A DNA stretch of 64,000 nucleotides from Candidatus Competibacteraceae bacterium (GTDB taxonomy: Bacteria > Pseudomonadota > Gammaproteobacteria > Competibacterales > Competibacteraceae), in assembly GCA_003989085.1 (NCBI GenBank), contig RXIV01000002.1, positions 62,001 through 126,000 of the forward strand, given 5' to 3'. The notes beneath the pieces are model-generated. The model was not told the DNA's origin. It saw nothing but the letters and a program-made list of their open reading frames with translations, and searched no databases. Shown one piece after another: positions 37,349-51,251 of the stretch. Positions within the stretch are counted from its first letter, which is position 1. Every line of letters begins with the position of its first letter. Made by a program: the position numbers and the translations under genes.

Positions 37349-38287
37349 ATGATCAACAAGACGTTGGTGCAGGTAGAGCGGCTGACCCGGCGCTATGGCG
37401 AACACCGGGCAGTGGACGACCTCAGTTTCACGCTGCGACGCGGCCAGGTGTTGGGCTTGCTCGGCCCCAACGGGGCCGGCAAATCCACCACGTTGCGGAT
37501 GCTGGCGGGTGTGCTGGCCCCGGACGCCGGGCGGATTGTCATTAACGGCAGAGATTTGCTTGACCAGCCGCGCCAGGCCCGGCAGGCCATCGGCTACCTG
37601 CCGGAACAGCCGCCGCTGTATCGTGAACTCACAGTTGACGAGCAACTGTATTACAGCGCCCGCCTGCACGGTCTCAGCCGCACCGCCAGCCACCCTGCGA
37701 TAGCGCGAGTCAAGGAACGCTGCGGATTGGCGGAAGTCGGCAAGCGGCTGATCGGCCACTTGTCCAAGGGCTATCAGCAACGGACCGGACTGGCGCAAGC
37801 CATTGTCCATACCCCTCCGGTCATCATTCTGGACGAGCCGACCATTGGCCTGGACCCGATCCAGATTCAGGGCATCCGCACCCTGATCCGTGAATTAGGC
37901 CGAAAGCAGGGCGTCATTTTATCCACCCATCTGCTGTCGGAAGTGCAGAGCACCTGCACCCATGTCCATATTCTGCGGGCCGGACGACTGGTCTATGCTG
38001 GCGCACTGGCCGAACTGGAACAACAACGCCCCTCCGCCAGTCTGCGAATCGGCCTGAACGCACCGCCACCGATCGCGGAGCTGGAGCAATTACCTCGAGT
38101 GACGCAGGTCGAGGAACTCGGCGAGGGCCAGTTCCGGCTCCATCATTCCCCCGGCGCGTTACTGCACCGGATTCTGGTGGAACTGGCCTATGACCACGGC
38201 TGGGATTTGTGGGAATTGACCCCGGAACGGGAAAGTCTGGAGCAAATGTTCGTCAATCTAACCCTGAACCAGGAGACTGCCGGATGA
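37349..38287 (+). CDS. ABC-2 exporter ATPase (GldA-like)
   Basis: ATPase of 312 residues: Walker A GPNGAGKST (about 45-53), signature LSKGYQQRTGLAQAI, Walker B VIILDEPTIGLDP, then a C-terminal extension of about 90 residues with a GldA/CcmA-like fold. Its stop overlaps the ATG of the permease (ATGA). With the permease, a GldG-like protein and a DUF4340-like protein, it forms the four-gene set seen in gliding bacteria and in many non-gliding ones, whose substrate is unknown. Confidence 0.9.
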   Translation: MINKTLVQVERLTRRYGEHRAVDDLSFTLRRGQVLGLLGPNGAGKSTTLRMLAGVLAPDAGRIVINGRDLLDQPRQARQAIGYLPEQPPLYRELTVDEQLYYSARLHGLSRTASHPAIARVKERCGLAEVGKRLIGHLSKGYQQRTGLAQAIVHTPPVIILDEPTIGLDPIQIQGIRTLIRELGRKQGVILSTHLLSEVQSTCTHVHILRAGRLVYAGALAELEQQRPSASLRIGLNAPPPIAELEQLPRVTQVEELGEGQFRLHHSPGALLHRILVELAYDHGWDLWELTPERESLEQMFVNLTLNQETAG

Positions 38288-39024
38288 TTCTCACGATTGC
38301 CGCCCGCGAATGGCGCAGCCTGTTTCTGTCGCCACTGGCCTGGACAGTGCTGGCGGCGCAACAAGGATTGATGGCGTGGATTTTTCTGTTGCTGGTTCAG
38401 GACTTTCAGGCGGTGCAGGGACGGCTGGCCGGGCTGGAAAACGCACCGGGCGTGACCGATCTGGTAGCTGCACCACTGTTTCGGGTAGCGGCCTGGGGTC
38501 TGTTACTGGTCACGCCGCTAGCGACCATGCGCCTGTTCAGTATGGAACGCCGCACCCGTAGCCTCGATCTGCTGTTATCCGCGCCGGTGAGCGCCAGCGA
38601 AATGGTGCTGGGCAAATACCTGGGCACGATGCTGTTTTTGTGGATCGGAGCCAGTCTGGCCGGATTGATGCCGCTGGCGCTAGCCTTCGGCACAACACTG
38701 GATTTCGGCAAACTACTGGCCGGGCTGCTGGGACTGAGTCTGCTTGCTGCCGGCTTCGCCGCCGTCGGGCTGTATCTGTCCACACTGACCGTGCAACCCA
38801 TCGCTGCCGCTGCCGCCACTTTCGGGCTGTTACTGGGACTGTCGGTCGTGGACTTGCAGGAAACCACCAGCCGCCTGTTCGGCTATCTATCACCGCTGCG
38901 GCATTACGACGCCCTGTTGCTGGGTCTGGTCAACAGCGCCGACCTGGCCTATTACCTGTTGCTCAGCGTCCTGTTTCTTGGTCTGGCGATCCGCCGGATC
39001 GATGATCTACGGCTACGGGATTGA
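38284..39024 (+). CDS. ABC-2 exporter permease (GldF-like)
   Basis: From the ATG at 38284, overlapping the ATPase stop, the protein has 246 residues and six membrane segments. It contains LATMRLFSMERRTRSLDLLL, the coupling helix motif of GldF/NosY-type ABC-2 permeases, and GKYLGTMLFLW. The frame open from 38209 lies within the ATPase gene and is not used. Confidence 0.88.
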   Translation: MILTIAAREWRSLFLSPLAWTVLAAQQGLMAWIFLLLVQDFQAVQGRLAGLENAPGVTDLVAAPLFRVAAWGLLLVTPLATMRLFSMERRTRSLDLLLSAPVSASEMVLGKYLGTMLFLWIGASLAGLMPLALAFGTTLDFGKLLAGLLGLSLLAAGFAAVGLYLSTLTVQPIAAAAATFGLLLGLSVVDLQETTSRLFGYLSPLRHYDALLLGLVNSADLAYYLLLSVLFLGLAIRRIDDLRLRD

Positions 39025-39036
39025 CGGGACTTGCCC

Positions 39037-40392
39037 ATGCGCCTTGATTCCTCGATTCGCCGGCGGCTGTGGCGGCATCATCTGCTGTTCCTCGCGCTAT
39101 TCGGGCTAGTGATCGGCTTGCTAGCCTGGTTGAGCCAGCGCTATGTGGTTCAGGCTGACTGGAGCTACAGTCAGCGCAACACCCTGTCCGCAGCGAGTCA
39201 AACCCTGCTGGCCGGGATGGACGGGCCGGTTCGGATTACGGCCTATGCCCGCGACACACCCACCTTGCGCGAGGCCATTCGCCGGTTGGTGGGCCGCTAT
39301 CAGCGCTATAAACCCGATTTAAGCCTGGTTTTCGTCAATCCCGACCTGCTGCCCGATCGGGTGCGTGAATTGGGTCTGACTGTGGATGGGGAGTTGTATG
39401 TTGACTATCGCGGGCACGGCGAAAAAGTCCAGCACCTCAGCGAGCAGACTATAACCCAGACTTTGCAACGGCTGTGTCGTGGGCAGGAGCGGGTGGTGCG
39501 CTTCGTGACCGGTCACGGCGAACGCAAGTCGGACGGCATCGCCAATCATGATTTGGGCAACTTTGGTCGTGGACTGGAACAGATCGGGATTCAGGCCCGG
39601 TCGGTGGATTTAACCAAGGAGCCGCAGCTTCCCGCTGGGACTGCCGCGCTGGTCATCGCCAGTCCACAATTACCGCTGCCTGCGATGGAAGTTCAGGCGG
39701 TGCTGACTTATGTCGAACAGGGTGGCAATCTGCTCTGGCTGCGGGAGCCGCAGGAACCAGCTGGTTGGCAACCGTTGGCGGCGGCGCTGGGTGTGACTGT
39801 GTTGCCAGGCACCGTGGTGGACCCCGACGCGCCCAAGCTGGGAACGATCAGCAACCCGACCTTCATCCCCATCGTCGATTACGGCCCGCACCCGATCACG
39901 ATGCCGTTACGTTCTCCGACGCTGCTGCCGCAGGCGGTGGCGTTGGACCTTCAGCCAACCGCCGGCTGGAAAGCCGCCACGCTGCTGGAAAGCCAATCCC
40001 GCGCCTGGACCGAAACCGGAGCGCTGGATGGGGCGATCCAGTTTGATCCCAACACCACCGAGCGGACTGGCCCGCTGACGGTCGGAGTGGCGCTGTCCCG
40101 CCCCCGCCCCGCCGCCCCGGAACAACAACGGGTGGTTGTGATCGGCGATGGCGATTTTCTGACCAACACCTACCTCGGCAACGGGGCTAATCTGCAACTG
40201 GGCATCAATATCCTGAATTGGCTGACTCTGGATGACGCACTCATCACAGTCCCTCCCCGGACTGCGCCCGATTCCCAACTGAATCTGTCGGATCGTGCGC
40301 TGGCGGTACTGGCCGGCGTCTTCCTGATTGGGTTGCCGGGAATTCTCCTGATCAGCGGTTGGCTGATTAGCTTTCAGCGGCGGCGGCGCTAA
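39037..40392 (+). CDS. GldG-like ABC transporter auxiliary protein
   Basis: From the ATG at 39037 (GGGA upstream) about 451 residues. There is an N-terminal membrane anchor (about 12-34), then a large extracytoplasmic part of the GldG/ABC-type uncharacterised domain, with SQRNTLSAASQTLLAGMDGP, RFVTGHGERKS, and a GATase-like fold end VVVIGDGDFLTN. A C-terminal anchor lies near 425-445. It is tied to the ABC-2 genes by 12 nt. Confidence 0.85.
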   Translation: MRLDSSIRRRLWRHHLLFLALFGLVIGLLAWLSQRYVVQADWSYSQRNTLSAASQTLLAGMDGPVRITAYARDTPTLREAIRRLVGRYQRYKPDLSLVFVNPDLLPDRVRELGLTVDGELYVDYRGHGEKVQHLSEQTITQTLQRLCRGQERVVRFVTGHGERKSDGIANHDLGNFGRGLEQIGIQARSVDLTKEPQLPAGTAALVIASPQLPLPAMEVQAVLTYVEQGGNLLWLREPQEPAGWQPLAAALGVTVLPGTVVDPDAPKLGTISNPTFIPIVDYGPHPITMPLRSPTLLPQAVALDLQPTAGWKAATLLESQSRAWTETGALDGAIQFDPNTTERTGPLTVGVALSRPRPAAPEQQRVVVIGDGDFLTNTYLGNGANLQLGINILNWLTLDDALITVPPRTAPDSQLNLSDRALAVLAGVFLIGLPGILLISGWLISFQRRRR

Positions 40393-40394
40393 CC

Positions 40395-40934
40395 ATGAAT
40401 ACGCTCAGGCGGCGGCGCTGGCTGAATCTGGGACTGCTGGGATTGGCCGGCGGACTGGCGGGGCTGGCGTGGTTCACGCCGGACCGGGAGTCGGTGACGG
40501 GTCCACCCTTGCTGAATCTGGCTCCGGCACTGCTTGAACGGATCCGGGTCGAACGACCGGGACAGCAAACCCTGGCCTTCGAGCGGCGTGGGGAGCACTG
40601 GCAAATGACTGCGCCGGGCGTTGGACCGGCTAATCCGGTTTTGATCAACCCGATCCTGCAACTGGTCGAGATGCACTGCCCGGTGCGCTATCCGGTCGGC
40701 ATGGTGGATCTGAAAACGCTGCATCTCGATCCGCCCCGGCTGCGGCTGTGGCTGAATGACCAGGAAATCCGCTTCGGCAGCACAGCCCCGACCGATGATC
40801 GGCGCTATCTGCACTTGGCGGACCATGTTTATCTCTGCCCCGATCGCCTGTATCCGCTGCTGAGCAGCAGCGCAGCGGGATTTTTGGCGCCGGTCATTGA
40901 GCCGCTGCCGCCGAAGGCGAAGAGCAGCGACTAA
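40395..40934 (+). CDS. DUF4340-like anchored protein
   Basis: The 179 residues have an N-terminal membrane anchor after RRRRW (about 10-28), then a repeat-like beta domain ([20 protein letters not shown]) seen in DUF4340 proteins that follow GldG genes. It is shorter than many DUF4340 proteins, which carry two such domains. The start lies 2 nt after the GldG-like stop, and the end overlaps the mutM start (TAATG). Confidence 0.8.
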
Positions 40935-41759: not shown

Positions 41760-44372
41760 CTAGATATCCATCAACGGGGAGGCGTCCTTGGCAGCGCAGG
41801 CCTCTATACGGGTCCACGCGCTGGGCGCAGTCCAATCGGCGATCCAAGCCGGGAGATGTTCAGGCGGCATCGGGCGGGCGATGCCATAGCCTTGGGCCAG
41901 GTCGCAGCCCAGCCGGATCAGCAGGCTGCCATGCGCGTCAGTTTCCACTCCTTCCGCGATCACCTGACGGTGGAAGGCCACCGACAGACCGATGACACCT
42001 TCTACGATCGCCCGCGCCTCGGTATCCACCAGCAAGTCGCGTACGAACGATTGATCAATCTTCAGCAGATGCACAGCCAAGTTCTTGAGGTAAGTCAGCG
42101 AGGAATAGCCGGTACCAAAATCGTCCAGTGCGAAACGCACCCCCAGTTGCCGGCAGCTTTCGATCAGATGGGCAATAGCCGCCATATCTCCCAAAGCCAC
42201 GGTTTCCAGGATTTCAAGCTCAAGTCCACCGGGAGGCACTTGAGGATAAGCCGCCAACGCCGCCTGCAACTCCGCGACGAAATCCGGGTGCTGCAAGTGA
42301 CGACTGGAAACATTGATGCTGACCGGTAGATACAGGCCTTGTGTGCCCCAGGCGGTCATCTGCCGCAACGCTTCATTCATCACCCATTGACCAACGGCGA
42401 TGGCCAGATCGCTGGCTTCGACGGCAGGCATGAAGTGCGCCGGTGGCAGCAAACCCTCCTCCGGGTGTTGCCAGCGGATCAGCGCTTCAGCGCCGATGAC
42501 GACGCCACGACGCATGTTCACCTGAGGTTGGTAATAGAGACGGAATTCGCCAGCGGCCAGCCCCTCTTCAATCCGATGCAGGCTTTCACGGTAGCAGCGG
42601 GCGCGACGATCATGGTCGGCATCAAACCAGTGGTAGCGGTTGCCACCCGCCTGCTTGGCGGCATACATGGCCTGGTCAGTATGACGCAGCAGGGTGTCCG
42701 GGTCGGAGGCATCATCGGGATACAAGGTCACACCGAGGCTGGTGGTCAGGGACAACGGCTGGCCGGCTATCGCAAAAGGGACCCGTAGCACCGTCACCAC
42801 CCGATCCAAGGTCATTTCGCATTCCTCCACGTTAGCCAAATTCCCCAGCAGCAACACAAACTCATCCCCGCCCAACCGCGCCACGGTGTCGCCAGCACGC
42901 ACACTGGTCTTCAGGCGCTGCGCCACTTCGACCAAAACCTGATCGCCGTACCCGTGCCCCCAGGTATCGTTGATGGCTTTGAAAGCGTCTAAATCCAAGT
43001 AACACACCGCCAGCCACCTCTGGTCGCGCCCGGCTTGGGCCATCGCCTGTTGTATGCGGTCGGTCAGCAACACCCGGTTGGGCAGGTGGGTCAGCGCATC
43101 GTGATAGGCCAGGTGTTCGATCCGCGCCTCGGCTCGTTTACGTTCGACCATGTCGATGAGCAGCGACAACAGATGTTGCACCGTATCTACATCGTCGTCG
43201 GTGTAGTCCTCCGGCTTGTTGCCAACGCCGGCAATGGCGACCACCTGATCGTGACGCAAAATCGGTACGACTAATTCTCGAATGATCAGGGGGTGACCAG
43301 CAGGCAGGGTATGCCGGTTGGACAGGGCAGCGTAGTCGTTGTGGATAACCGGGCGGTGCGTGCGGAGGCAATCCGCCCAGACCCCGGCCTGACTGACTGG
43401 ATAGTGCAGACCCTTGCCCTCAGCCTTGCACTGGCTATTCAGAGTATGGGTAGACCAGGTTTGGAGCGTCAGGTTTTCCTGGTCAGGTTCAACGAAATGG
43501 AAGAAGCCAATCTGGCTGCCAGTGAAGCGCTCCATAGCATCCAGCGCAGCTTGCAACAGGTTATCCAGACTACTGGTGAGGGCCATTTCAGATAGACGCA
43601 TTCGCACTTTAAGCAGCGCATCAGAGCGTTGCCGGCGGTGGATATCACGGATGAAGCCAAATATCAGGCTCCCTGCGCCGTAACGGTAGCAGGAGACGTT
43701 GACCTCAGCCTGCCAGATTCGACCGCTCTTCGCCCGGTGCAGCGTTTGAAACAGGCCGTTGCCTTCCTGGATAACTTTTTCGATGTGGGCTGTAATCTCC
43801 TCCGGACGCTCGTTGACTTCCAGATCGGCAATAGCCATGTGCAACAATTCATCACGGCTATAGCCGGACAGATGGGTATAGGCTTCATTTGTTTCCAGCA
43901 AGTGTCCTTGGGTATCCACTACCCAAAAGCCGTCCGGGGAGGTTTCAATCACCGCCCGATACCGTTCCTCGCTGCGCCGCAGTGCTTCCTCCGCCTGTTT
44001 GCGCTCGGTGATATTGTCAAAGATAACGACGAAGTCGTCTTTTTCCGGACTGTACACGGAGACCGAGAACCAGATTTGCAAACTAATGACATAGATCTCG
44101 AACTTCTCCGGGACGCCGGTCATGGCAACACGGCCGTAAGTTTCAAATAACCCCGGGTCAAGTACCTTGATCTCTGGAATGATCTCAGTCACCTTTTTCC
44201 CGATCACATCCTTCAATCCAGTGAGTTCTTCAAATGCTTTATTAACATGCAGATAGATAAAGTCTTGAGCTTGGCCGTTTTCGTATAGCATCCGGCAATA
44301 AGCGAATCCGCTGAGCATATTCTCAAACAGCGCACGATAACTGGCTTCACTCACCCGTAGTGTCTCTTCCAC
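41760..44372 (-). CDS. PAS-PAS-GAF-GGDEF-EAL cyclic-di-GMP signalling protein, apparently 5'-truncated
   Basis: An 870-residue protein: PAS (about 5-130), PAS (about 140-260), GAF (about 270-410), diguanylate cyclase with intact GGDEF in RLGGDEFVLLLG, and phosphodiesterase with intact EAL in GAEALIRW and DDFGTGYSSL. Both catalytic domains look able to work. The start is odd. The first codon is a GTG in the middle of the classic PAS linker: the bases just before it would read KIIEITERKP, and a TAA stands right before that. The gene seems to have lost an N-terminal sensor by rearrangement. It faces the four-gene operon at 44715. Confidence 0.9.
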   Translation of the reverse strand: MEETLRVSEASYRALFENMLSGFAYCRMLYENGQAQDFIYLHVNKAFEELTGLKDVIGKKVTEIIPEIKVLDPGLFETYGRVAMTGVPEKFEIYVISLQIWFSVSVYSPEKDDFVVIFDNITERKQAEEALRRSEERYRAVIETSPDGFWVVDTQGHLLETNEAYTHLSGYSRDELLHMAIADLEVNERPEEITAHIEKVIQEGNGLFQTLHRAKSGRIWQAEVNVSCYRYGAGSLIFGFIRDIHRRQRSDALLKVRMRLSEMALTSSLDNLLQAALDAMERFTGSQIGFFHFVEPDQENLTLQTWSTHTLNSQCKAEGKGLHYPVSQAGVWADCLRTHRPVIHNDYAALSNRHTLPAGHPLIIRELVVPILRHDQVVAIAGVGNKPEDYTDDDVDTVQHLLSLLIDMVERKRAEARIEHLAYHDALTHLPNRVLLTDRIQQAMAQAGRDQRWLAVCYLDLDAFKAINDTWGHGYGDQVLVEVAQRLKTSVRAGDTVARLGGDEFVLLLGNLANVEECEMTLDRVVTVLRVPFAIAGQPLSLTTSLGVTLYPDDASDPDTLLRHTDQAMYAAKQAGGNRYHWFDADHDRRARCYRESLHRIEEGLAAGEFRLYYQPQVNMRRGVVIGAEALIRWQHPEEGLLPPAHFMPAVEASDLAIAVGQWVMNEALRQMTAWGTQGLYLPVSINVSSRHLQHPDFVAELQAALAAYPQVPPGGLELEILETVALGDMAAIAHLIESCRQLGVRFALDDFGTGYSSLTYLKNLAVHLLKIDQSFVRDLLVDTEARAIVEGVIGLSVAFHRQVIAEGVETDAHGSLLIRLGCDLAQGYGIARPMPPEHLPAWIADWTAPSAWTRIEACAAKDASPLMDI

Positions 44373-44451
44373 TGGTTTGCGCTCGGTGATCTCAATAATC
44401 TTTTAGGCTATCGATGATTTCTGCTAATGACCAGATCATAGTCGATGATTA

Positions 44452-44712
44452 TTGTCCGATTATCCACCAACCCAGGCGTGGGTTGACAGCACCCGGTTAC
44501 GCTGGACAGTCATCGGCAAAAACAACTACAACTGGAACTCGCCCAACCTCAAAAAGGGCTATCCTGAAAATTGCTTGCGCCTAATCCGGCCCATAAACCC
44601 ATCGGTTATCAACAATGACCCGATGATGCTGATCGCCGGGACTGGCGACTGGATTGACGACTTCGATCAAACCGATGCCCACCGGCTTTATCTGGTGTCC
44701 AACCCAGTCTGA
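44452..44712 (+). CDS. Hypothetical ORF in the divergent gap, doubtful
   Basis: An 86-codon frame from a TTG, with no Shine-Dalgarno sequence and no recognisable domain. The sequence is hydrophilic, Trp- and Asn-rich (WTVIGKNNYNW, GDWIDDFDQTDA). Its stop at 44710-44712 lies 2 nt before the kinase ATG. Codon choice looks coding-like, so it may be the tail of a lost gene rather than a living one. The rest of the 342-nt gap holds nothing else that I can name. Confidence 0.35.
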   Translation: MSDYPPTQAWVDSTRLRWTVIGKNNYNWNSPNLKKGYPENCLRLIRPINPSVINNDPMMLIAGTGDWIDDFDQTDAHRLYLVSNPV

Positions 44713-44714
44713 AA

Positions 44715-45971
44715 ATGACCCGCCGCAGGAAGGTTGACAACCAGATGCGCCAAAACCACGAACGCTACCACCAACTGTTCATGGATACCCGTGCAGTCGG
44801 GTTGCTCATTGATCCGGACAGCGGCGCTATTGTGGACGCCAACCGGATGGCGGTGCGCTACTACGGCTATTCGCTAGAGCAATTGCAGCAACTGAAAATT
44901 ACTGACATCAACATCCTGCCGCCCGAAGAAATAGCCGCCGAGATACAGCGCGCTTGCACCGAGCAACGCGACTGTTTCCTCTTCAGGCACCGGCTGGCCT
45001 CCGGAGAAATCCGCGATGTTGAAGTGTATTCCGGGCCGGTCGATATAGACGGTAAGACCCTGTTGTATTCGATCATCCAGGACATCACCGCTCGCAATCG
45101 GGTCACCGCCGAGCGTGAAGCACTGCAACAGCAACTGGTGGACGCTTCCCGACTGGCCGGGATGACTGAAGTGGCGACTGGTGTGCTACATAATGTGGGT
45201 AACGCCCTGAACAGTGTCAACGTCTCGGTTCAACTGATCAACGATAGCCTGCGAACCTCACGGGTCACCAACTTGAGTAAGACCGTCCACCTGCTGCGGG
45301 AAAACCTGACCGCTGACCTACTACTGAACAGCGACAGCCGTTATTGGCACTTGCTGGATTATCTGGCGGCGTTGGCTGAGCATCTACAGGGGGAGCAACA
45401 GCAATTGTATGCCGAGGTCCAGGCGGTAGCCGAGAAGATCGACCACATTAAGCGGATTGTCAGTCGCCAGCAAGCTTATGCCGTCAATAGCAGCATCAAC
45501 GAAGCCGTCGCATTGCCACAACTGCTTGATGACGCCCTGGCGATGCACATCACCGATCACCATGCCATCACCATCCTCCGCGACTACGATCCCATTCCAT
45601 TACAGGTACTGGATAAACACAAGCTGTTGCAGATCGTCGCTAACCTAATCCGCAACGCCAAAGACGCTCTCCAGGAGCAGGACCGCTTCAACCGCCGGTT
45701 GATCGTCCACCTTCACTGCTGCAAAGACCAGCGGCTCCAAATCGAAATTACCGACACCGGCACCGGAATCGCTCAAGAACACCTCATCCGGGTGTTTGAG
45801 TTCGGCTTCACCACCAAACCGAACGGCCACGGCTTCGGCCTGCACTCCAGTGCCAATCTGGCCCGGGAATTGGGCGGGGCGCTTAGCTGCCACAGCGCCG
45901 GTCCCGGCTGTGGCGCAACCTTTATCCTGGAACTGCCTTTAAAAAATAGGCCGGAGGCGCTGATCCGATGA
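44715..45971 (+). CDS. PAS sensor histidine kinase
   Basis: The 418 residues contain one PAS domain (about 15-130), a kinase helix with His159 in GVLHNVGNALNSV, a less common H-box than HELxxP, and an ATPase domain with NLIRNAKDAL, DTGTGI and GHGFGLHSSA. There is no transmembrane segment. The start MTRRRKVDNQM looks like the end of a PAS linker (I-T-E-R-R-x-V), so the gene may have lost an N-terminal part. The stop overlaps the next gene (ATGA). First of four coupled signalling genes. Confidence 0.88.
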   Translation: MTRRRKVDNQMRQNHERYHQLFMDTRAVGLLIDPDSGAIVDANRMAVRYYGYSLEQLQQLKITDINILPPEEIAAEIQRACTEQRDCFLFRHRLASGEIRDVEVYSGPVDIDGKTLLYSIIQDITARNRVTAEREALQQQLVDASRLAGMTEVATGVLHNVGNALNSVNVSVQLINDSLRTSRVTNLSKTVHLLRENLTADLLLNSDSRYWHLLDYLAALAEHLQGEQQQLYAEVQAVAEKIDHIKRIVSRQQAYAVNSSINEAVALPQLLDDALAMHITDHHAITILRDYDPIPLQVLDKHKLLQIVANLIRNAKDALQEQDRFNRRLIVHLHCCKDQRLQIEITDTGTGIAQEHLIRVFEFGFTTKPNGHGFGLHSSANLARELGGALSCHSAGPGCGATFILELPLKNRPEALIR

Positions 45972-47425
45972 ATCCTGCTCCCGTTCCGGCCCAGCCCTGT
46001 CGTCTGCTGGTGATTGATGACAACCGCGCTATTCATGACGACATCCGCAAAATTTTTGCAGTGCGCGGTGATGTCGGCAAACTGGAAGCGCTGGAAGCTG
46101 AACTGTTTGGAACCCCCCGCGCTGCGCCGCAGCGCCCGGTATTCGCCATTGATTCGGCCTATCAAGGCCGTGATGGGCTGACCCTGGTTCAACAGGCACT
46201 GGCCGAGAACCAACCTTATCAGGTGGCCTTTATCGATGTGCGGATGCCGCCCGGATGGGACGGGATCGAAACGCTGGAATGCCTATGGCAGGTCGATCCA
46301 GCCTTACAGGCGGTGATTTGCACCGCCTATGCCGACTATTCCTGGACCGAAATCATCACCCGACTGGGCCGCAGCGATCAGTTCCTGATCCTCAAAAAAC
46401 CGTTTGACCCGATTGAAATAAGCCAATTGGCGGTGGCACTCAGCCGCAAGTGGATTTTGCACCGCCAAGTCCAGCAACAACTGGACGCGCTCGATCATCT
46501 GGTGCAACAACGCACGAGCGAGCTACAGACGACTAGTGAACAATTAGGTCAGGAAATCGCGCAACGCGAGAAGGTAGAACTGGAACTCCGACTCGCGCAA
46601 AAACTGGAGGCGGTCGGGCAACTGGCCGCCGGCATCGCCCACGAAATCAACACCCCGATCCAGTACATTGGCGATAGCGTCCATTTTCTGCAAAGCGCCT
46701 TCGATGATCTGATCGGCTTGCTGGCGGTCTATCAGGCGCTGTGGCCGCAGTTCCGCCAGAACCCGCAAGGTGCTGACTGGCAAGCCCAAATCCAGGATGC
46801 CGAAGACGCCGCCGATCTGGACTATGTGCGCGAACAGGCGCCACGCGCTTTTGAGCGCACTCTGGAAGGCGTGGAACGGGTGACGGGCATCGTCCGCGCC
46901 ATGAAGGAATTCGCCCACCCCGATCAGCGCGAGCAAAGCAGCGCCAATCTTAACAAGGCGCTGCTCAACACCCTCACCGTCGCTCGCAATGAATACAAGT
47001 ATGTGGCGGATATAGAAATCGATCTAGACGAGTTGCCGCCCGTGTCGTGCTATCTCAGCGACCTGAACCAGGTTTTTCTTAACCTCGTGGTCAATGCCGC
47101 CCATGCTATCGGCGATGTCGTGGATGACAGCCGGCCAAAGGGCCGGATCACGATCCGCAGCCGGGCGATGGGCGATACGGTGGAAATCGCCATCGCTGAT
47201 ACCGGCAGCGGCATTCCCGAGGCGATCCGCGACCGGATTTTCGATCCATTCTTCACCACCAAACCAGTCGGTAAAGGTACCGGGCAGGGTTTGGCTATCG
47301 CCCGTTCCATTGTGGTGGACAAGCATCGGGGATCGCTGACTTTCGAGACCGTCGCTGGTCAGGGGACCACCTTTTACATCTGCCTGCCGGTCGATGGTCA
47401 AGCGACAGCAGGAGACCGGCCATGA
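45968..47425 (+). CDS. Receiver-histidine kinase hybrid (REC at N-terminus)
   Basis: The 485 residues start with a receiver domain (Asp90 in FIDVRMPP, Lys144 in LKKPF) that carries an unusual insert of about 25 residues between its first helix and second strand. A coiled coil (about 165-215) follows, then HisKA with His225 in AAGIAHEINTPIQYI and an ATPase domain with NLVVNAAHAI and GTGQGLAIARSI. No membrane segment. Placing REC before the kinase suggests it is a relay that takes phosphate from another kinase, probably the gene before it. It overlaps both neighbours by 4 nt. Confidence 0.9.
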   Translation: MNPAPVPAQPCRLLVIDDNRAIHDDIRKIFAVRGDVGKLEALEAELFGTPRAAPQRPVFAIDSAYQGRDGLTLVQQALAENQPYQVAFIDVRMPPGWDGIETLECLWQVDPALQAVICTAYADYSWTEIITRLGRSDQFLILKKPFDPIEISQLAVALSRKWILHRQVQQQLDALDHLVQQRTSELQTTSEQLGQEIAQREKVELELRLAQKLEAVGQLAAGIAHEINTPIQYIGDSVHFLQSAFDDLIGLLAVYQALWPQFRQNPQGADWQAQIQDAEDAADLDYVREQAPRAFERTLEGVERVTGIVRAMKEFAHPDQREQSSANLNKALLNTLTVARNEYKYVADIEIDLDELPPVSCYLSDLNQVFLNLVVNAAHAIGDVVDDSRPKGRITIRSRAMGDTVEIAIADTGSGIPEAIRDRIFDPFFTTKPVGKGTGQGLAIARSIVVDKHRGSLTFETVAGQGTTFYICLPVDGQATAGDRP

Positions 47426-48618
47426 AACGTATTTTGTTTGTCGACGACGAACCGCCTGTTCTGGATGGTTTGCAAAACCTGCTCCGCAAAAACCGCCGCA
47501 AATGGGAGATGAGCTTTACCGCCAGCGGCGAAGCCGCGCTGGCGTTGCTGCAAACCCAAAGCTTCGATGTACTGGTCTCCGATATGCGAATGTCCGGCGT
47601 AGATGGCGCCCAGTTGCTGCGCTACGCCAAAGAGCATCATCCCAAGACAGTGCGGATTATTTTGTCCGGCTACACGGAAATAAAAGCGGCCTTACAAGCA
47701 ATGCCGGTGGCGCACCAATTTCTCAGCAAACCCTGTGATGCGCAGGAACTGGAAAATGTAGTGGATCGGGCCTGCATGGTGCAGGCGCTGCTCGACGACA
47801 CCGATGGCAATCTGCGCCAGGTGATCGGACGAATCGACCAATTGCCGTCGATCCCCAGGGTCTACCACGCCCTGATGCAGGCTTTCGCCGAGGACAAGGC
47901 CGGAATCGACGACATTGCCCGACTGTTGAAACAGGACATGGCGATCTGCGCCAAGCTGCTGCAAGTGGTCAACTCGGCGTTTTTCCGTCTAGCGCGGCGC
48001 ATCACCAGTATTGAAGAAGCAGCGCGCTACCTGGGGTTCACCATGATTCGCAATCTGGTGTTGACGCTTGAAGTGTTTCAAAGCGCCCAGCCACTGCACG
48101 GGTTGTCGCTGGAAGCCTTGCAAGACCATGCCTTGCGGGTAGCCGCGCTGGCCCGGCGGCTATGCAGCGATAAAAGCCAGGCGGACGATGCGTTCATGGC
48201 CGGTCTGCTGCACGACATTGGCCGCCTGATCATAGCGACGGAAATGCCCGATCGGCTGAAGCAAACCCTGCAACTCGCCGCTCAGGAGCAGATCGCGCCT
48301 TATCAGGCCGAATACCAAATTCTCGGGGTGTCACACGCTGAGATCGGCGCTTATCTACTGGGGTTATGGGGGTTGCCTTATCCAATTATCGAGGCGGCCG
48401 CCAACCACCATCAGCCGCAGAGGGTGCCGCAACGCGGCTTTGACGTGCTGGCGGCGGTATATCTGGCCAACCTGCTGGTGCAGGAACTCGCCCCATACCA
48501 TCCGCCGGGCAGCCAGTCTCTCGACTGGGCTTATCTGGAATCGCTGGGCGTCACTCCGGCGCAGCTCGTCGAGTGGCGGGACTTGGCCTCGGAACAAAAC
48601 CATTCACCCAAGGAGTAA
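47422..48618 (+). CDS. Receiver-HDOD response regulator
   Basis: The 398 residues comprise a receiver (DDE at 8-10, Asp54 in VSDMRMSG, Lys108 in LSKPC) and an HDOD domain (about 130-330) with LPSIPRVYHALMQ and KLLQVVNSAFF; metal-site-like HDIGR is retained in GLLHDIGR. HDOD domains act in protein-protein signalling and usually lack phosphodiesterase activity. Overlaps the kinase gene by 4 nt; the next receiver gene follows after 6 nt. Confidence 0.9.
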   Translation: MKRILFVDDEPPVLDGLQNLLRKNRRKWEMSFTASGEAALALLQTQSFDVLVSDMRMSGVDGAQLLRYAKEHHPKTVRIILSGYTEIKAALQAMPVAHQFLSKPCDAQELENVVDRACMVQALLDDTDGNLRQVIGRIDQLPSIPRVYHALMQAFAEDKAGIDDIARLLKQDMAICAKLLQVVNSAFFRLARRITSIEEAARYLGFTMIRNLVLTLEVFQSAQPLHGLSLEALQDHALRVAALARRLCSDKSQADDAFMAGLLHDIGRLIIATEMPDRLKQTLQLAAQEQIAPYQAEYQILGVSHAEIGAYLLGLWGLPYPIIEAAANHHQPQRVPQRGFDVLAAVYLANLLVQELAPYHPPGSQSLDWAYLESLGVTPAQLVEWRDLASEQNHSPKE

Positions 48619-48624
48619 GCAACC

Positions 48625-49770
48625 GTGAATCAGGATCGCCCGCATATCCTGTGCGTGGATGACGAACCCAGAGTGCTGGAAGGACTGAAACTGCATTTGC
48701 ACCGCCATTATGAGGTGCACACCGCCGCTGGTGGTCCCCAGGCTCTGGAACTGATCCAGAACGAGGAGCGGTCGTTTGCAGTGGTGCTGTCGGATATGCG
48801 GATGCCGGAGATGGACGGCGCTGCGTTCCTCAGCCAGGTGCGGCAACGGCTTCCCGATACGGTGCGGATGCTGCTGACCGGACAAGCGGATATTGAATCA
48901 ACCATTGCCGCCGTCAACGAAGGCCAGATCTTCCGGTTTTTGACCAAGCCCTGTCCGCCTAAAACCTTGCTGGCCGCCTTTGAAGCGGCTACTGAGCAGC
49001 ATCGGCTCATCACGGCAGAACGGGTGCTGCTGGAACAGACCCTGCGTGGGACGATCAAGACGTTGACCGACATTCTGGCGCTGGCCAACCCGACCGCTTT
49101 TGGTCGCGCCAACCGCATCCGCCGCCATGCTACCGACTTGGCTAAACAACTCGGCATTGGACAGGACTGGTGGCAACTGGACGTGGCGGCGATGCTGTCG
49201 CAACTGAGCTGTATCACCCTGCCGCCGGACACGCTGGACAAGCTGTATCAAGGCGGAGTGCTCAGCGAGGCGGAACAGGCCATGGTGAAGCGGTTGCCCG
49301 CGATGACTTCCCAGTTACTCAGCGGCATTCCCCGGCTGGATCCGGTCATCGCCATCCTCAACCATCAGGATTCACCCTATCAATTTGATTCGAAAGCACT
49401 CGATTGGCCGCGCCTCGGCGGACACATCCTGCATATCGCCGGCGATTTCGACACGCTAATCAACCACGGTTACTCGGCGGAGACAACGCTCAACATCCTG
49501 CAGACCCGAATCGGACAGTATGACCCGACCATGCTGGCCGCTTTTGCCATCATCCGTAATCCCAATACGGCGCGGCGTAATGCGATCAAGGAAATTTCGA
49601 TTCTGACGCTGAAACCGGGAATGGTGTTGGCCGAGGATATTCGCAGTGCAGGCGGAGCCTTGTTAAGCGCCCGCGGCCATGAAATCACCGACAGCTTTCT
49701 GACGCGGCTCTATAACTTCCAGGCCAGCTTGCAGAAATCGACGGTGAAGGTGCTAAGCCCGTCGGAATAG
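48625..49770 (+). CDS. Receiver-degenerate HD response regulator
   Basis: The 381 residues comprise a receiver (DDE at 12-14, Asp57 in LSDMRMPEMDG, Lys111 in LTKPC) followed by a helical region arranged like HD-GYP proteins (RIRRHATDLAKQLGI ... LPPDTLDKLYQGG ... GIPRLDPVIAILNHQ). The catalytic HD pair is replaced (AAMLSQLS where LHDIGK is usual) and there is no GYP. It therefore should not degrade cyclic di-GMP, though it may still bind a partner. Last gene of the operon. Confidence 0.85.
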   Translation: MNQDRPHILCVDDEPRVLEGLKLHLHRHYEVHTAAGGPQALELIQNEERSFAVVLSDMRMPEMDGAAFLSQVRQRLPDTVRMLLTGQADIESTIAAVNEGQIFRFLTKPCPPKTLLAAFEAATEQHRLITAERVLLEQTLRGTIKTLTDILALANPTAFGRANRIRRHATDLAKQLGIGQDWWQLDVAAMLSQLSCITLPPDTLDKLYQGGVLSEAEQAMVKRLPAMTSQLLSGIPRLDPVIAILNHQDSPYQFDSKALDWPRLGGHILHIAGDFDTLINHGYSAETTLNILQTRIGQYDPTMLAAFAIIRNPNTARRNAIKEISILTLKPGMVLAEDIRSAGGALLSARGHEITDSFLTRLYNFQASLQKSTVKVLSPSE

Positions 49771-49779
49771 CGCCACTGT

Positions 49780-50124
49780 TCAGTACGGCGGTGGATTGTT
49801 GTAGTAGCGAGGAGGTGGCCGGTTGTAGTAACCATCGTCGTAATTGTAGTAGCGGGGTGGCTGCCCCTCGTAATACCTGAGTTGCTGTTCCTGATAATCC
49901 ATCTGGTTGCCGATAGCCCCACCGATCAACGCCCCGCCCAAGGCGCCGGTGACGGCCCCGCCGGTCGGATCAATGGCATGGCCGATCGCAGCGCCGGCTG
50001 CTGCGCCCATCAGCGCGTTGCCGGTGGTGTAGTAGTTGGGCGGAGCGCCGGGTGGCGGCGGAGCGCAGGCAGTAGTCAAACCCAGCAGCGCGGCCAGAAT
50101 CGTGAGGTTGAGCGGCGTTCGCAT
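49780..50124 (-). CDS. Glycine-zipper lipoprotein
   Basis: From the ATG at 50124 the product has 114 residues. A lipoprotein signal with the lipobox LTTAC (Cys near residue 20) is followed by a Pro-rich stretch, then a glycine zipper (ALMGAAAGAAIGHAIDPTGG ... GGALIGGAIG) that spans or packs in a membrane. The tail is Tyr/Pro/Asn-rich with two PPRYYN units. It is probably outer-membrane bound. The longer frame to 50379 precedes the signal and is rejected. Convergent with the signalling operon, 9 nt apart. Confidence 0.85.
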   Translation of the reverse strand: MRTPLNLTILAALLGLTTACAPPPPGAPPNYYTTGNALMGAAAGAAIGHAIDPTGGAVTGALGGALIGGAIGNQMDYQEQQLRYYEGQPPRYYNYDDGYYNRPPPRYYNNPPPY

Positions 50125-50339
50125 GAGCGTTCTCCGAGATGATTGCCAACGGTTGGAATTAAAAAAGATGACGGCGGGATCCTCGCGCAGGATGCGCTGT
50201 AGCAGCGCCGTCAACAAGACCCACTTACACCCCCACAGGTTGCCATGCACTATCCCGCTCACCGGGTGAATGCGGCCTGAATCGGCGGGATGCCGCACTT
50301 TGGGGAGTGGGAGCGGAATTATTCTATTAACACCCCACC

Positions 50340-51251
50340 TCAGGGTGAAAGCGGCGTCCGGCGCGGCAGTGTCGGCCACTGTTCCGGCGGTTCGAGGCGG
50401 GCGGCGGCGATTCGCGCCAGCAGCGTTTCGCCATGATGCTGGCGCGTAGTGGGCGGCAAGCCGGGTATACGTTGCAGTTCGGCCACGGTCTCCGGTAGCC
50501 GCCGAGCCAGTTCCACCAAGGCCGAGTCGCCGAGAATCCAGCGTCGGGGCCGGTCATGGGCGATAGCTTGTTCTTCACGCCAGGCCGCCAGCGACCGCAA
50601 GACCGACAACTGGACTCCACGCAACCGCTGGTGATTGCGAACCCGCCGCCAAGTCTCCAACGGTTGGGGCCGATAGCGGTCGGGATCGGCCAATGCGGCC
50701 AGATCCTCAGTCAGCGCCACCGGCCAGCCGAGTTCCGCCAGCGCCGCCTGTTGCCGCCGGTACAGTTCCGGCAGGTAGCGCACATCGTCTGCCGCATAAA
50801 CCAGCCATTCGGGAACCAGTGGCCGGCGCTGCCAGTCAGCCCGGGTGTGGGTCTTGTCCAGGTCTACGCCAAGCACCTGCTGCACCAGCGCCGCGTAGCC
50901 GATCTGCTGGCCTTGGCCCAAGGTCATCGCCGCCCGCTGGGTGTCGAAGATCGGCGTGGGAACCGCCCCGCGCAGGTGAAAAAAGATTTCCAAATCCTGA
51001 TAGGCGGCATGCAGGACTTTGGTGATGGCTGGGTCGTAGAGCAAGTCCAGCAACGGATTCAGCGACGGTAACGCCAGGGGATCAATACAGGCGATGCGCC
51101 CCTCAGGGCCGGCAATCTGAATCAGGCATAGCTGGGGGTAATAGGTGCGCTCGCGGATAAATTCGGTATCCAGCGCCAGCCAGGCCGCCCCACGCAATTC
51201 GGCGCAGAAACTGGCTAATGCTGGCTGATCAGCAAGGTACAGATCCGTCAT
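50340..51251 (-). CDS. rnd: Ribonuclease D (short form)
   Basis: A 3'-5' exoribonuclease for tRNA end trimming. The 303 residues hold the DEDDy core: LALDTEFIRE (about 31-40), HAAYQDLEIFF, and YAADDVRYL with the catalytic Tyr/Asp; an HRDC domain follows (about 208-285). E. coli RNase D is about 375 residues and ends with a second HRDC-like domain, which is missing here. There are no signs of frameshift at the end, so this looks like a short natural form. Confidence 0.88.
   Translation of the reverse strand: MTDLYLADQPALASFCAELRGAAWLALDTEFIRERTYYPQLCLIQIAGPEGRIACIDPLALPSLNPLLDLLYDPAITKVLHAAYQDLEIFFHLRGAVPTPIFDTQRAAMTLGQGQQIGYAALVQQVLGVDLDKTHTRADWQRRPLVPEWLVYAADDVRYLPELYRRQQAALAELGWPVALTEDLAALADPDRYRPQPLETWRRVRNHQRLRGVQLSVLRSLAAWREEQAIAHDRPRRWILGDSALVELARRLPETVAELQRIPGLPPTTRQHHGETLLARIAAARLEPPEQWPTLPRRTPLSP

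Follow-up and report, generated by a model that had tools for sequence, protein, structure and literature searches.

Output by protein contact is common to the known regulators with a dead HD-GYP domain. In the HnoD/HnoB/HnoK nitric oxide network of Shewanella oneidensis, the degenerate HD-GYP response regulator HnoD directly inhibits the EAL protein HnoB (PMC6335343). NosR of the NosP-NosK-NosR system (NF053512), which also consists of a receiver (REC) and a degenerate HD-GYP domain, is phosphorylated by the operon kinase NosK, and regulation of another enzyme was proposed by its authors (PMC12570481). DvhD of Desulfovibrio vulgaris carries SQ in place of HD and binds cyclic di-GMP (c-di-GMP) without hydrolysis (PMC13090378), and VC1087 of Vibrio cholerae, a REC-HD-GYP protein without the HD dyad, showed no activity either in vivo or in vitro (PMC4212101). 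Key active-site residues are described as missing from HDOD domains, although some keep HD, among them the response regulator DVU0330, whose activity towards an artificial substrate is weak (PMC4114195). In the present study, an operon that encodes two histidine kinases, a REC-HDOD response regulator and a REC-degenerate HD-GYP response regulator was analysed in a Candidatus Competibacteraceae bacterium, a gammaproteobacterial genome of the metagenome-assembled type with 30 contigs. The window is the whole analysed stretch of 64,000 nucleotides (nt) of contig RXIV01000002.1.

The operon is read here as a two-kinase module whose HDOD and dead HD-GYP outputs act by protein contact, with the dead HD-GYP protein as partner of the HDOD protein, and a probability of about 0.5 is assigned to this reading. 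The four-gene cluster exceeds what is expected by chance, as the ratios of nonsynonymous to synonymous substitution rates (dN/dS) of the four genes, with the window compared to each of two genus mates, are 0.12-0.21, a sign of purifying selection, and as the gene order is met again in other phyla. The features of the locus, in positions of the window, are the following:

44715..45971, + strand: first histidine kinase (HK1), PAS plus kinase, 418 amino acids (aa), H159 in LHNVGN, assigned from open reading frames (ORFs), Pfam and motifs
45968..47425, + strand: second kinase (RECHK), atypical N-terminal receiver (D90) plus kinase (H225 in AHEINTP), ATP boxes intact
47422..48618, + strand: REC-HDOD response regulator, D54, HDOD ligands H236, H264-D265, H305 and H329-H330
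48625..49770, + strand: REC-degenerate HD-GYP response regulator (REC-HD), D57, C-terminal extension, S192-Q193 where the HD dyad stood
41760..44372, - strand: divergent neighbour gene encoding PAS-PAS-GAF-GGDEF-EAL, with intact GGDEF and EAL motifs
44482..44709, + strand: remains of the GAF domain of the ancestral HK1, decayed, with a frame that stops at the TGA 44710-44712 and lies one base out relative to HK1

HK1 and RECHK overlap by 4 nt (TGA end at 45971, ATG start at 45968), RECHK and REC-HDOD likewise at 47422-47425, 6 nt lie between the end of REC-HDOD at 48618 and the GTG start of REC-HD at 48625, and 342 nt (44373-44714) separate the EAL gene from HK1. An ORF check reproduced the coordinates, gene order, overlaps and gaps given in the original prediction, which had been made from the sequence alone, a motif check located H159, D90, D54 and D57 where they had been placed, and the Pfam domain content was in agreement with it. 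In Pfam, HK1 matched PAS_9 and HATPase_c, and RECHK matched HATPase_c (86 bits) and, weakly and atypically, Response_reg (34.6 bits). Both defining domains were present in REC-HDOD (Response_reg 77.1 bits; HDOD 183.8 bits, cut-off 22.9), REC-HD matched Response_reg (75 bits) and HD_5 (71.6 bits, cut-off 27.2), and the divergent neighbour protein matched EAL (233 bits), GGDEF (170), GAF_2 (93) and PAS. Among the matches listed, none of the five proteins reached an NCBIfam equivalog cut-off. The Pfam scan revealed no DNA-binding domain in any protein of the locus, which, together with the precedent of HnoD, is consistent with the predicted output by contact rather than by DNA binding.

The family to which REC-HD belongs was characterized by an alignment of 76 sequences, comprising the window protein and 75 of the 80 loci described below (L021, L067, L070, L076 and L086 were left out). 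The receiver is intact, with D12, D13, D57 and K108 each conserved in 76/76, and the HD dyad is intact in none of the 76 members. Its two columns are mostly occupied by S192 (60/76) and Q193 (53/76), with R161 at the first-His position in 60/76 and Q248 at the HH column in 62/76; the window protein, with S192-Q193 and Q248, has neither the HD dyad nor HHE nor GYP. The family has a signature of its own, made up of R161 and Q248 together with W183 and I235 (75/76 each), P236 (74/76) and R237 (68/76). Since these residues were kept while the dyad was lost, the alignment identifies a maintained pseudo-HD-GYP family and not decay, and local decay of the HD domain was rejected because the 76 relatives share both the loss and the signature. 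The domain called HD-like in the original prediction is thus dead by sequence, as had been claimed, and is more exactly a degenerate HD-GYP domain with a C-terminal extension. In a second sample, the dyad was missing and W183 was present in 22/22 sequences. A tree of 49 family rows (the window, 26 of the 80 first-set loci taken as every third, and 22/22 of the second set) and 22 canonical HD-GYP rows was split between the two groups by one branch with a Shimodaira-Hasegawa-like approximate likelihood ratio test value of 100; for the canonical rows, L124 was left out of 20 controls, and L098, L009 and L101 were added, the last of which covers one and the same gene region with L131.

The AlphaFold2 model of REC-HD had a predicted local distance difference test (pLDDT) score of 92.6 and matched the HD-GYP structures 9RBZ and 4MCW in Foldseek, which agrees with the HD-GYP fold; the template modelling (TM) scores were low to moderate because the query includes the receiver and the tail. 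A VIA-align comparison with the same model returned receiver-domain matches only and is silent on the HD part, and a literature search for a crystal structure of a 'degenerate HD-GYP' retrieved no paper. The REC-HD-GYP protein would be unable to hydrolyse c-di-GMP by the usual metal mechanism, and in its lack of the HD dyad it resembles VC1087, likened here by description. The best NCBIfam match of REC-HD, and also of its HD part plus tail alone (76.5 bits), is NF053512, where the protein scored 226.9 bits against a cut-off of 400, so that the protein falls outside the NosR family. NosR differs in its altered motif HG-GTP and in an operon that has the NosP sensor and for which the accessible text mentions no HDOD protein (PMC12570481).

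DvhD shares the SQ substitution and the lack of hydrolysis with the window family, and it was both the sole solved chain matched by the HD part by sequence (E 2e-4) and the best-ranked HD-GYP protein by fold. The dead HD-GYP protein might accordingly be imagined as a c-di-GMP receptor that integrates phosphorylation and c-di-GMP in one molecule. However, DvhD is a membrane receptor without a receiver domain and retains c-di-GMP contacts and the GYP tyrosine (PMC13090378), which appear to be absent from the window family. Its contacts Y523, Y621, R650, Y652 and E668 fall, in a weak alignment, on T157, approximately Q253, H281, Y283 and R295 of the window protein, the corresponding columns of the family hold no matching conserved residue in that same weak alignment, and the GYP loop is gone. 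A receptor of this type is considered very unlikely.

For the analysis of gene order, genome contigs were scanned with the last protein alone and the best 80 of 536 relatives were kept as loci, which represent 17 named phyla and include 4 loci without phylum assignment. Of the 74 loci with enough sequence, 56 (14 named phyla) have a REC-HDOD gene immediately upstream in the same orientation, after 6/80 loci with less than 1100 bp upstream had been left out. A kinase gene precedes the HDOD gene in 44 of the 52 loci with room for it (13 named phyla), 4/56 loci with less than 2400 bp upstream being left out, and the full four-gene order was found in 6/80 loci from 4 phyla. Culturable carriers of the module include Sedimenticola selenatireducens (L072 and L064) and Stieleria sedimenti (L074), the latter with all four genes in order. 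An order unique to this strain, the outcome against which the original prediction had asked to be tested, was rejected, as the order recurs across many phyla. When 249 genomes were drawn independently from the phylum, 21 had a match, the own genome included, and HDOD was present upstream in 13 of the 22 loci that remained when the own locus was excluded, some of which stop at contig ends. By comparison, an HDOD ORF was found in 0/20 control loci of canonical REC-HD-GYP genes with flanks of up to 1.5 kb (13/22 versus 0/20, Fisher p 2e-5). Taken together, the adjacency in 56/74 and 13/22 loci and in 0/20 canonical ones suggests a functional tie, and the HDOD protein appears to be the partner of the dead HD-GYP protein that is best supported by gene adjacency. 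An extra gene for a receiver only was observed after the dead HD-GYP gene in 11/74 loci (L019, L022, L026, L027, L035, L039, L042, L071, L073, L077 and L089).

The HDOD protein itself was examined in an alignment of 56 sequences (the window and 55/56 loci, L076 being left out). Its ligand positions are largely kept, with H236 in 51, H264 in 55, D265 in 51, H305 in 51, H329 in 54 and H330 in 48 of 56 sequences, and its receiver has D54 in 55/56 and K103 in 56/56. The AlphaFold2 model (pLDDT 91.9) gave the HDOD proteins MmoQ, 3HC1 and SadB as top Foldseek matches. The HDOD fold is common to REC-HDOD and to MmoQ, 3HC1 and DVU0330, for which no pairing with a dead HD-GYP regulator is shown in the accessible parts of the sources; in those of PMC7930318, HDOD is named in a table only. 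The retained HD-type ligands form a putative metal site, and this site together with the HDOD adjacency leads to the proposal that the dead HD-GYP protein would regulate the HDOD protein. Quite unlikely is a heteromeric HD pair in which a metal-binding and catalytically competent REC-HDOD protein is joined by a dedicated pseudoenzyme, the REC-dead-HD-GYP protein, with one kinase switching both. If this were true, many phyla would have kept a pair of pseudoenzyme and enzyme that controls some substrate.

Both kinases possess a phospho-acceptor His and the N, G1 and G2 boxes. In RECHK, H225 lies in AHEINTP and the ATP boxes are at 372, 411 and 437; in HK1, H159 lies in LHNVGN and the ATP boxes are at 310, 347 and 371. 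HisKA scored below the Pfam cut-off in RECHK and gave no match in HK1. The original prediction had located H159 correctly and had omitted His225 of the second kinase, and its idea of one relay in which His159 serves each of the three aspartates did not hold up, as there are two kinases and gene association suggests HK1 for Asp90 and His225 for Asp54 and Asp57. In 40/80 loci, no more than 400 bp lie between the end of an ORF with AHEIN[T/N]P and the start of HDOD or REC-HD, and the motif is AHEINTP in 39. A kinase with LHNVGN was found in 6/80 loci from 4 phyla (L010, L019, L068, L074, L082 and L089), and under strict best-domain assignment the next gene begins with the atypical receiver in all 6. 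At a looser threshold of >60 bits, which cross-hits ordinary receivers and misses the kinase of L019 itself, an LHN[VI]GN kinase lies directly upstream of 5/10 second kinases that match the atypical-receiver model and of 0/32 without a match, the count being restricted to the 42 loci whose kinase starts after base 700. The atypical receiver alone was also searched in 249 genomes, which yielded 30 loci including that of the window, with 9 further matches outside the count. An HN[ILVA]GN kinase was present in the flank of 12 of the 29 non-window loci, and these flank kinases stand in other gene contexts. A general pairing rule between the HN(V/I)GN kinase and the atypical receiver is possible. 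HN(V/I)GN kinases beside an atypical-receiver gene, with no HDOD context, were seen in L165, L169, L176, L180, L181, L182, L186 and L190-L192.

The sequences show the gene order and domain composition, their conservation in many phyla, the absence of every HD ligand from the dead HD-GYP protein, the kept ligands of HDOD and purifying selection. We infer all phosphotransfer steps, the allosteric effect of Asp90 and the contact between the HDOD and HD-GYP proteins as follows. HK1, as a kinase of the LHNVGN type, would act on Asp90 of the atypical receiver with which the second kinase begins, and this receiver would then control the second kinase allosterically. The second kinase would phosphorylate, from His225, both Asp54 of REC-HDOD and Asp57 of the REC-dead-HD-GYP protein. 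The outputs, with no known DNA-binding domain in either, would act via protein contact, and the dead HD-GYP protein would be a phosphorylation-controlled regulatory partner of the HDOD protein.

Several points weigh against this two-kinase module. In two-component histidine kinases, an acidic residue usually follows the phospho-acceptor His. This residue is Glu in RECHK (HE) and Asn in HK1 (HN), and the kinase activity of HK1 is uncertain because of the Asn in its H-box. The order of HK1 and second kinase was found in only 6/80 loci, and HK1 is truncated in the window. The loci were chosen by similarity to the query, and the dyad count of 0/76 describes this subfamily and not REC-HD-GYP proteins at large. 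Trees of REC-HD and HDOD proteins were positively correlated, with rho 0.35 in 53 of the 56 loci (permutation maximum 0.19) and with 0.32 versus 0.22 across phyla, which speaks for the module but is modest and partly due to shared ancestry. Finally, the HDOD neighbour is absent in 18/74 loci, so that the dead HD-GYP protein can work without HDOD nearby, as would be expected of a plain two-component system with co-regulated but independent outputs, each with its own targets (for HDOD, a transcription activator, which has been proposed for MmoQ) and without mutual contact. HDOD response regulators also occur alone, and MmoS-MmoQ has been proposed as a copper-switch pair (PMC7994243). The frequent HDOD adjacency, not seen beside canonical REC-HD-GYP genes, argues against such independence, which is judged unlikely.

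The original prediction had pointed out that the GGDEF-EAL gene faces the operon across the 342-nt gap and had asked whether the HD-like protein binds its product; a dedicated partnership is not supported. The gap was as stated; the two genes are divergent with adjacent 5' ends, and the gap contains the decayed GAF remnant instead of clean intergenic DNA. HK1 of the window (417 residues aligned) corresponds to residues 916-1329 of the 1342-aa kinase of the genus mate G002 with 75% identity, and the gap DNA just 5' of HK1 matches the GAF domain of that kinase (blastn, 73.7% over 426 bp). At the protein level, the remnant shares 53% of 75 residues with positions 13885-13670 of locus L093 of G002 and is only 33% identical to its second match in the own genome, and a TGA and a one-base shift separate it from the ATG of HK1. 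Judged by these alignments, HK1 is 5'-truncated, with its membrane, PAS and GAF parts lost, and as the sensory portion (membrane and GAF) is missing, the module may be cut off from the input that it once had. The EAL gene starts within the last part of a PAS domain and is directly preceded by an in-frame TAA (read by eye), and its 5' end likewise looks truncated. Genus matches to its protein span residues 393-867 only, it does not lie beside the operon in L092 or L093, the two genus mates examined, and in neither L162 nor L163 does it come after mutM, its neighbour on the other side in the window. Two 5'-truncated genes joined back to back by a rearrangement are the simplest reading, with an assembly fault at 44373-44481 as the alternative. 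The junction being probably rearranged, the divergent EAL gene is weak evidence for function, and it probably stands outside the module.

These observations also bear on an HnoD-like mechanism, in which the dead HD-GYP protein would bind and inhibit an EAL or GGDEF-EAL phosphodiesterase, be it that of this locus or another one of the cell, the module would tune c-di-GMP and HDOD would be a parallel output. Like HnoD, which suppresses the EAL protein HnoB by contact, REC-HD combines a receiver with a degenerate HD-GYP domain and belongs to a system with a kinase; GGDEF/EAL genes occur near the module in 11/49 testable loci, five of the 11 from Sedimenticola, and, not counting the one in the window, GGDEF-EAL occurs at no fewer than 11 places of the source genome. 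In contrast, the partners of HnoD, compared here by description, are an EAL protein and a DNA-binding regulator (PMC6335343), the partner in the window is REC-HDOD, 38/49 loci have no GGDEF/EAL gene nearby, and the GGDEF-EAL gene adjacent in the window is a private arrangement. A conserved position of the EAL gene next to the operon was rejected on its absence beside the genus-mate operons and on the 11/49 loci, and the HnoD-like mechanism is regarded as rather unlikely. In two Actinomycetota (L063 2972-6802 and L078 2473-6363), the kinase beside the HDOD/dead-HD-GYP genes is fused to GGDEF-EAL, and a c-di-GMP link in some lineages is possible.

Within the genus, the ancestral front end of the proposed two-kinase module is better preserved. 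G001 (locus L092, on the contig of L010) has five genes in the order large histidine kinase (1040 aa), REC-PAS histidine kinase (535 aa), RECHK, REC-HDOD and REC-HD, with LHNVGN in both of the first two. In G002, the 1342-aa kinase is followed by a 125-aa fragment of the second kinase and then by the last three genes. The second large kinase was thus lost stepwise, being complete in G001, reduced to a fragment in G002 and absent from the window genome. The upstream LHNVGN sensor kinases lie at 13037-17777 in L092 and at 11959-16408 in L093. In G010 (L094), which belongs to the same family, a REC-PAS kinase stands ahead of HDOD and REC-HD. The HD part matched 5 among 40 relatives (E 1e-10). These were the own genome, two out of three genus mates, one other member of the family and the distant G039, whose HD protein still carries HDIGK, and the module is therefore patchy in this family. 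Beyond the family, its closest relatives are from Myxococcales and Gemmatimonadetes. The source genome has 7 HD_5 places and 8 HDOD places, one of the latter arising because the HDOD model also matches an HD_5 gene, and by those coordinates the window pair is the sole adjacent HDOD/HD_5 pair.

Regulatory signals and flanking genes were inspected as well. A sigma-70 promoter scan of 44200-50400 returned one site, on the opposite strand at 50349-50321, below the shuffled mean of 3.4, and promoter evidence for the operon was dropped on account of this single wrong-strand site. A terminator-like hairpin is present at 49773-49794 directly 3' of REC-HD; the same region holds 10 such sites against a shuffled mean of 5.9, a modest excess only. 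A glycine-zipper lipoprotein-like gene at 49780-50379 is convergent with the operon and is kept beside it in G001 and G002, where the operon is also adjoined by the gene beyond it, which we take to be RNase D-like. Just ahead of mutM, at 37349-40934, lie genes for an ABC ATPase, a permease and an auxiliary protein, named from sequence only, and a DUF4340-like gene with a Pfam score under the cut-off.

The original prediction had spoken of an undescribed pathway. Dead HD-GYP regulators such as HnoD, NosR and DvhD are already known; the kinase-HDOD-dead-HD-GYP operon type is new as judged by a literature search that retrieved no description of it and whose reach excluded subscription papers and preprints. 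HDOD and degenerate HD-GYP domains are common response-regulator outputs, and the shared-kinase operon gives a partner hypothesis for both. The recurrent combination of an LHN(V/I)GN kinase with the atypical receiver heading the second kinase likewise yields a rule, open to testing, for how kinases are wired in two tiers.

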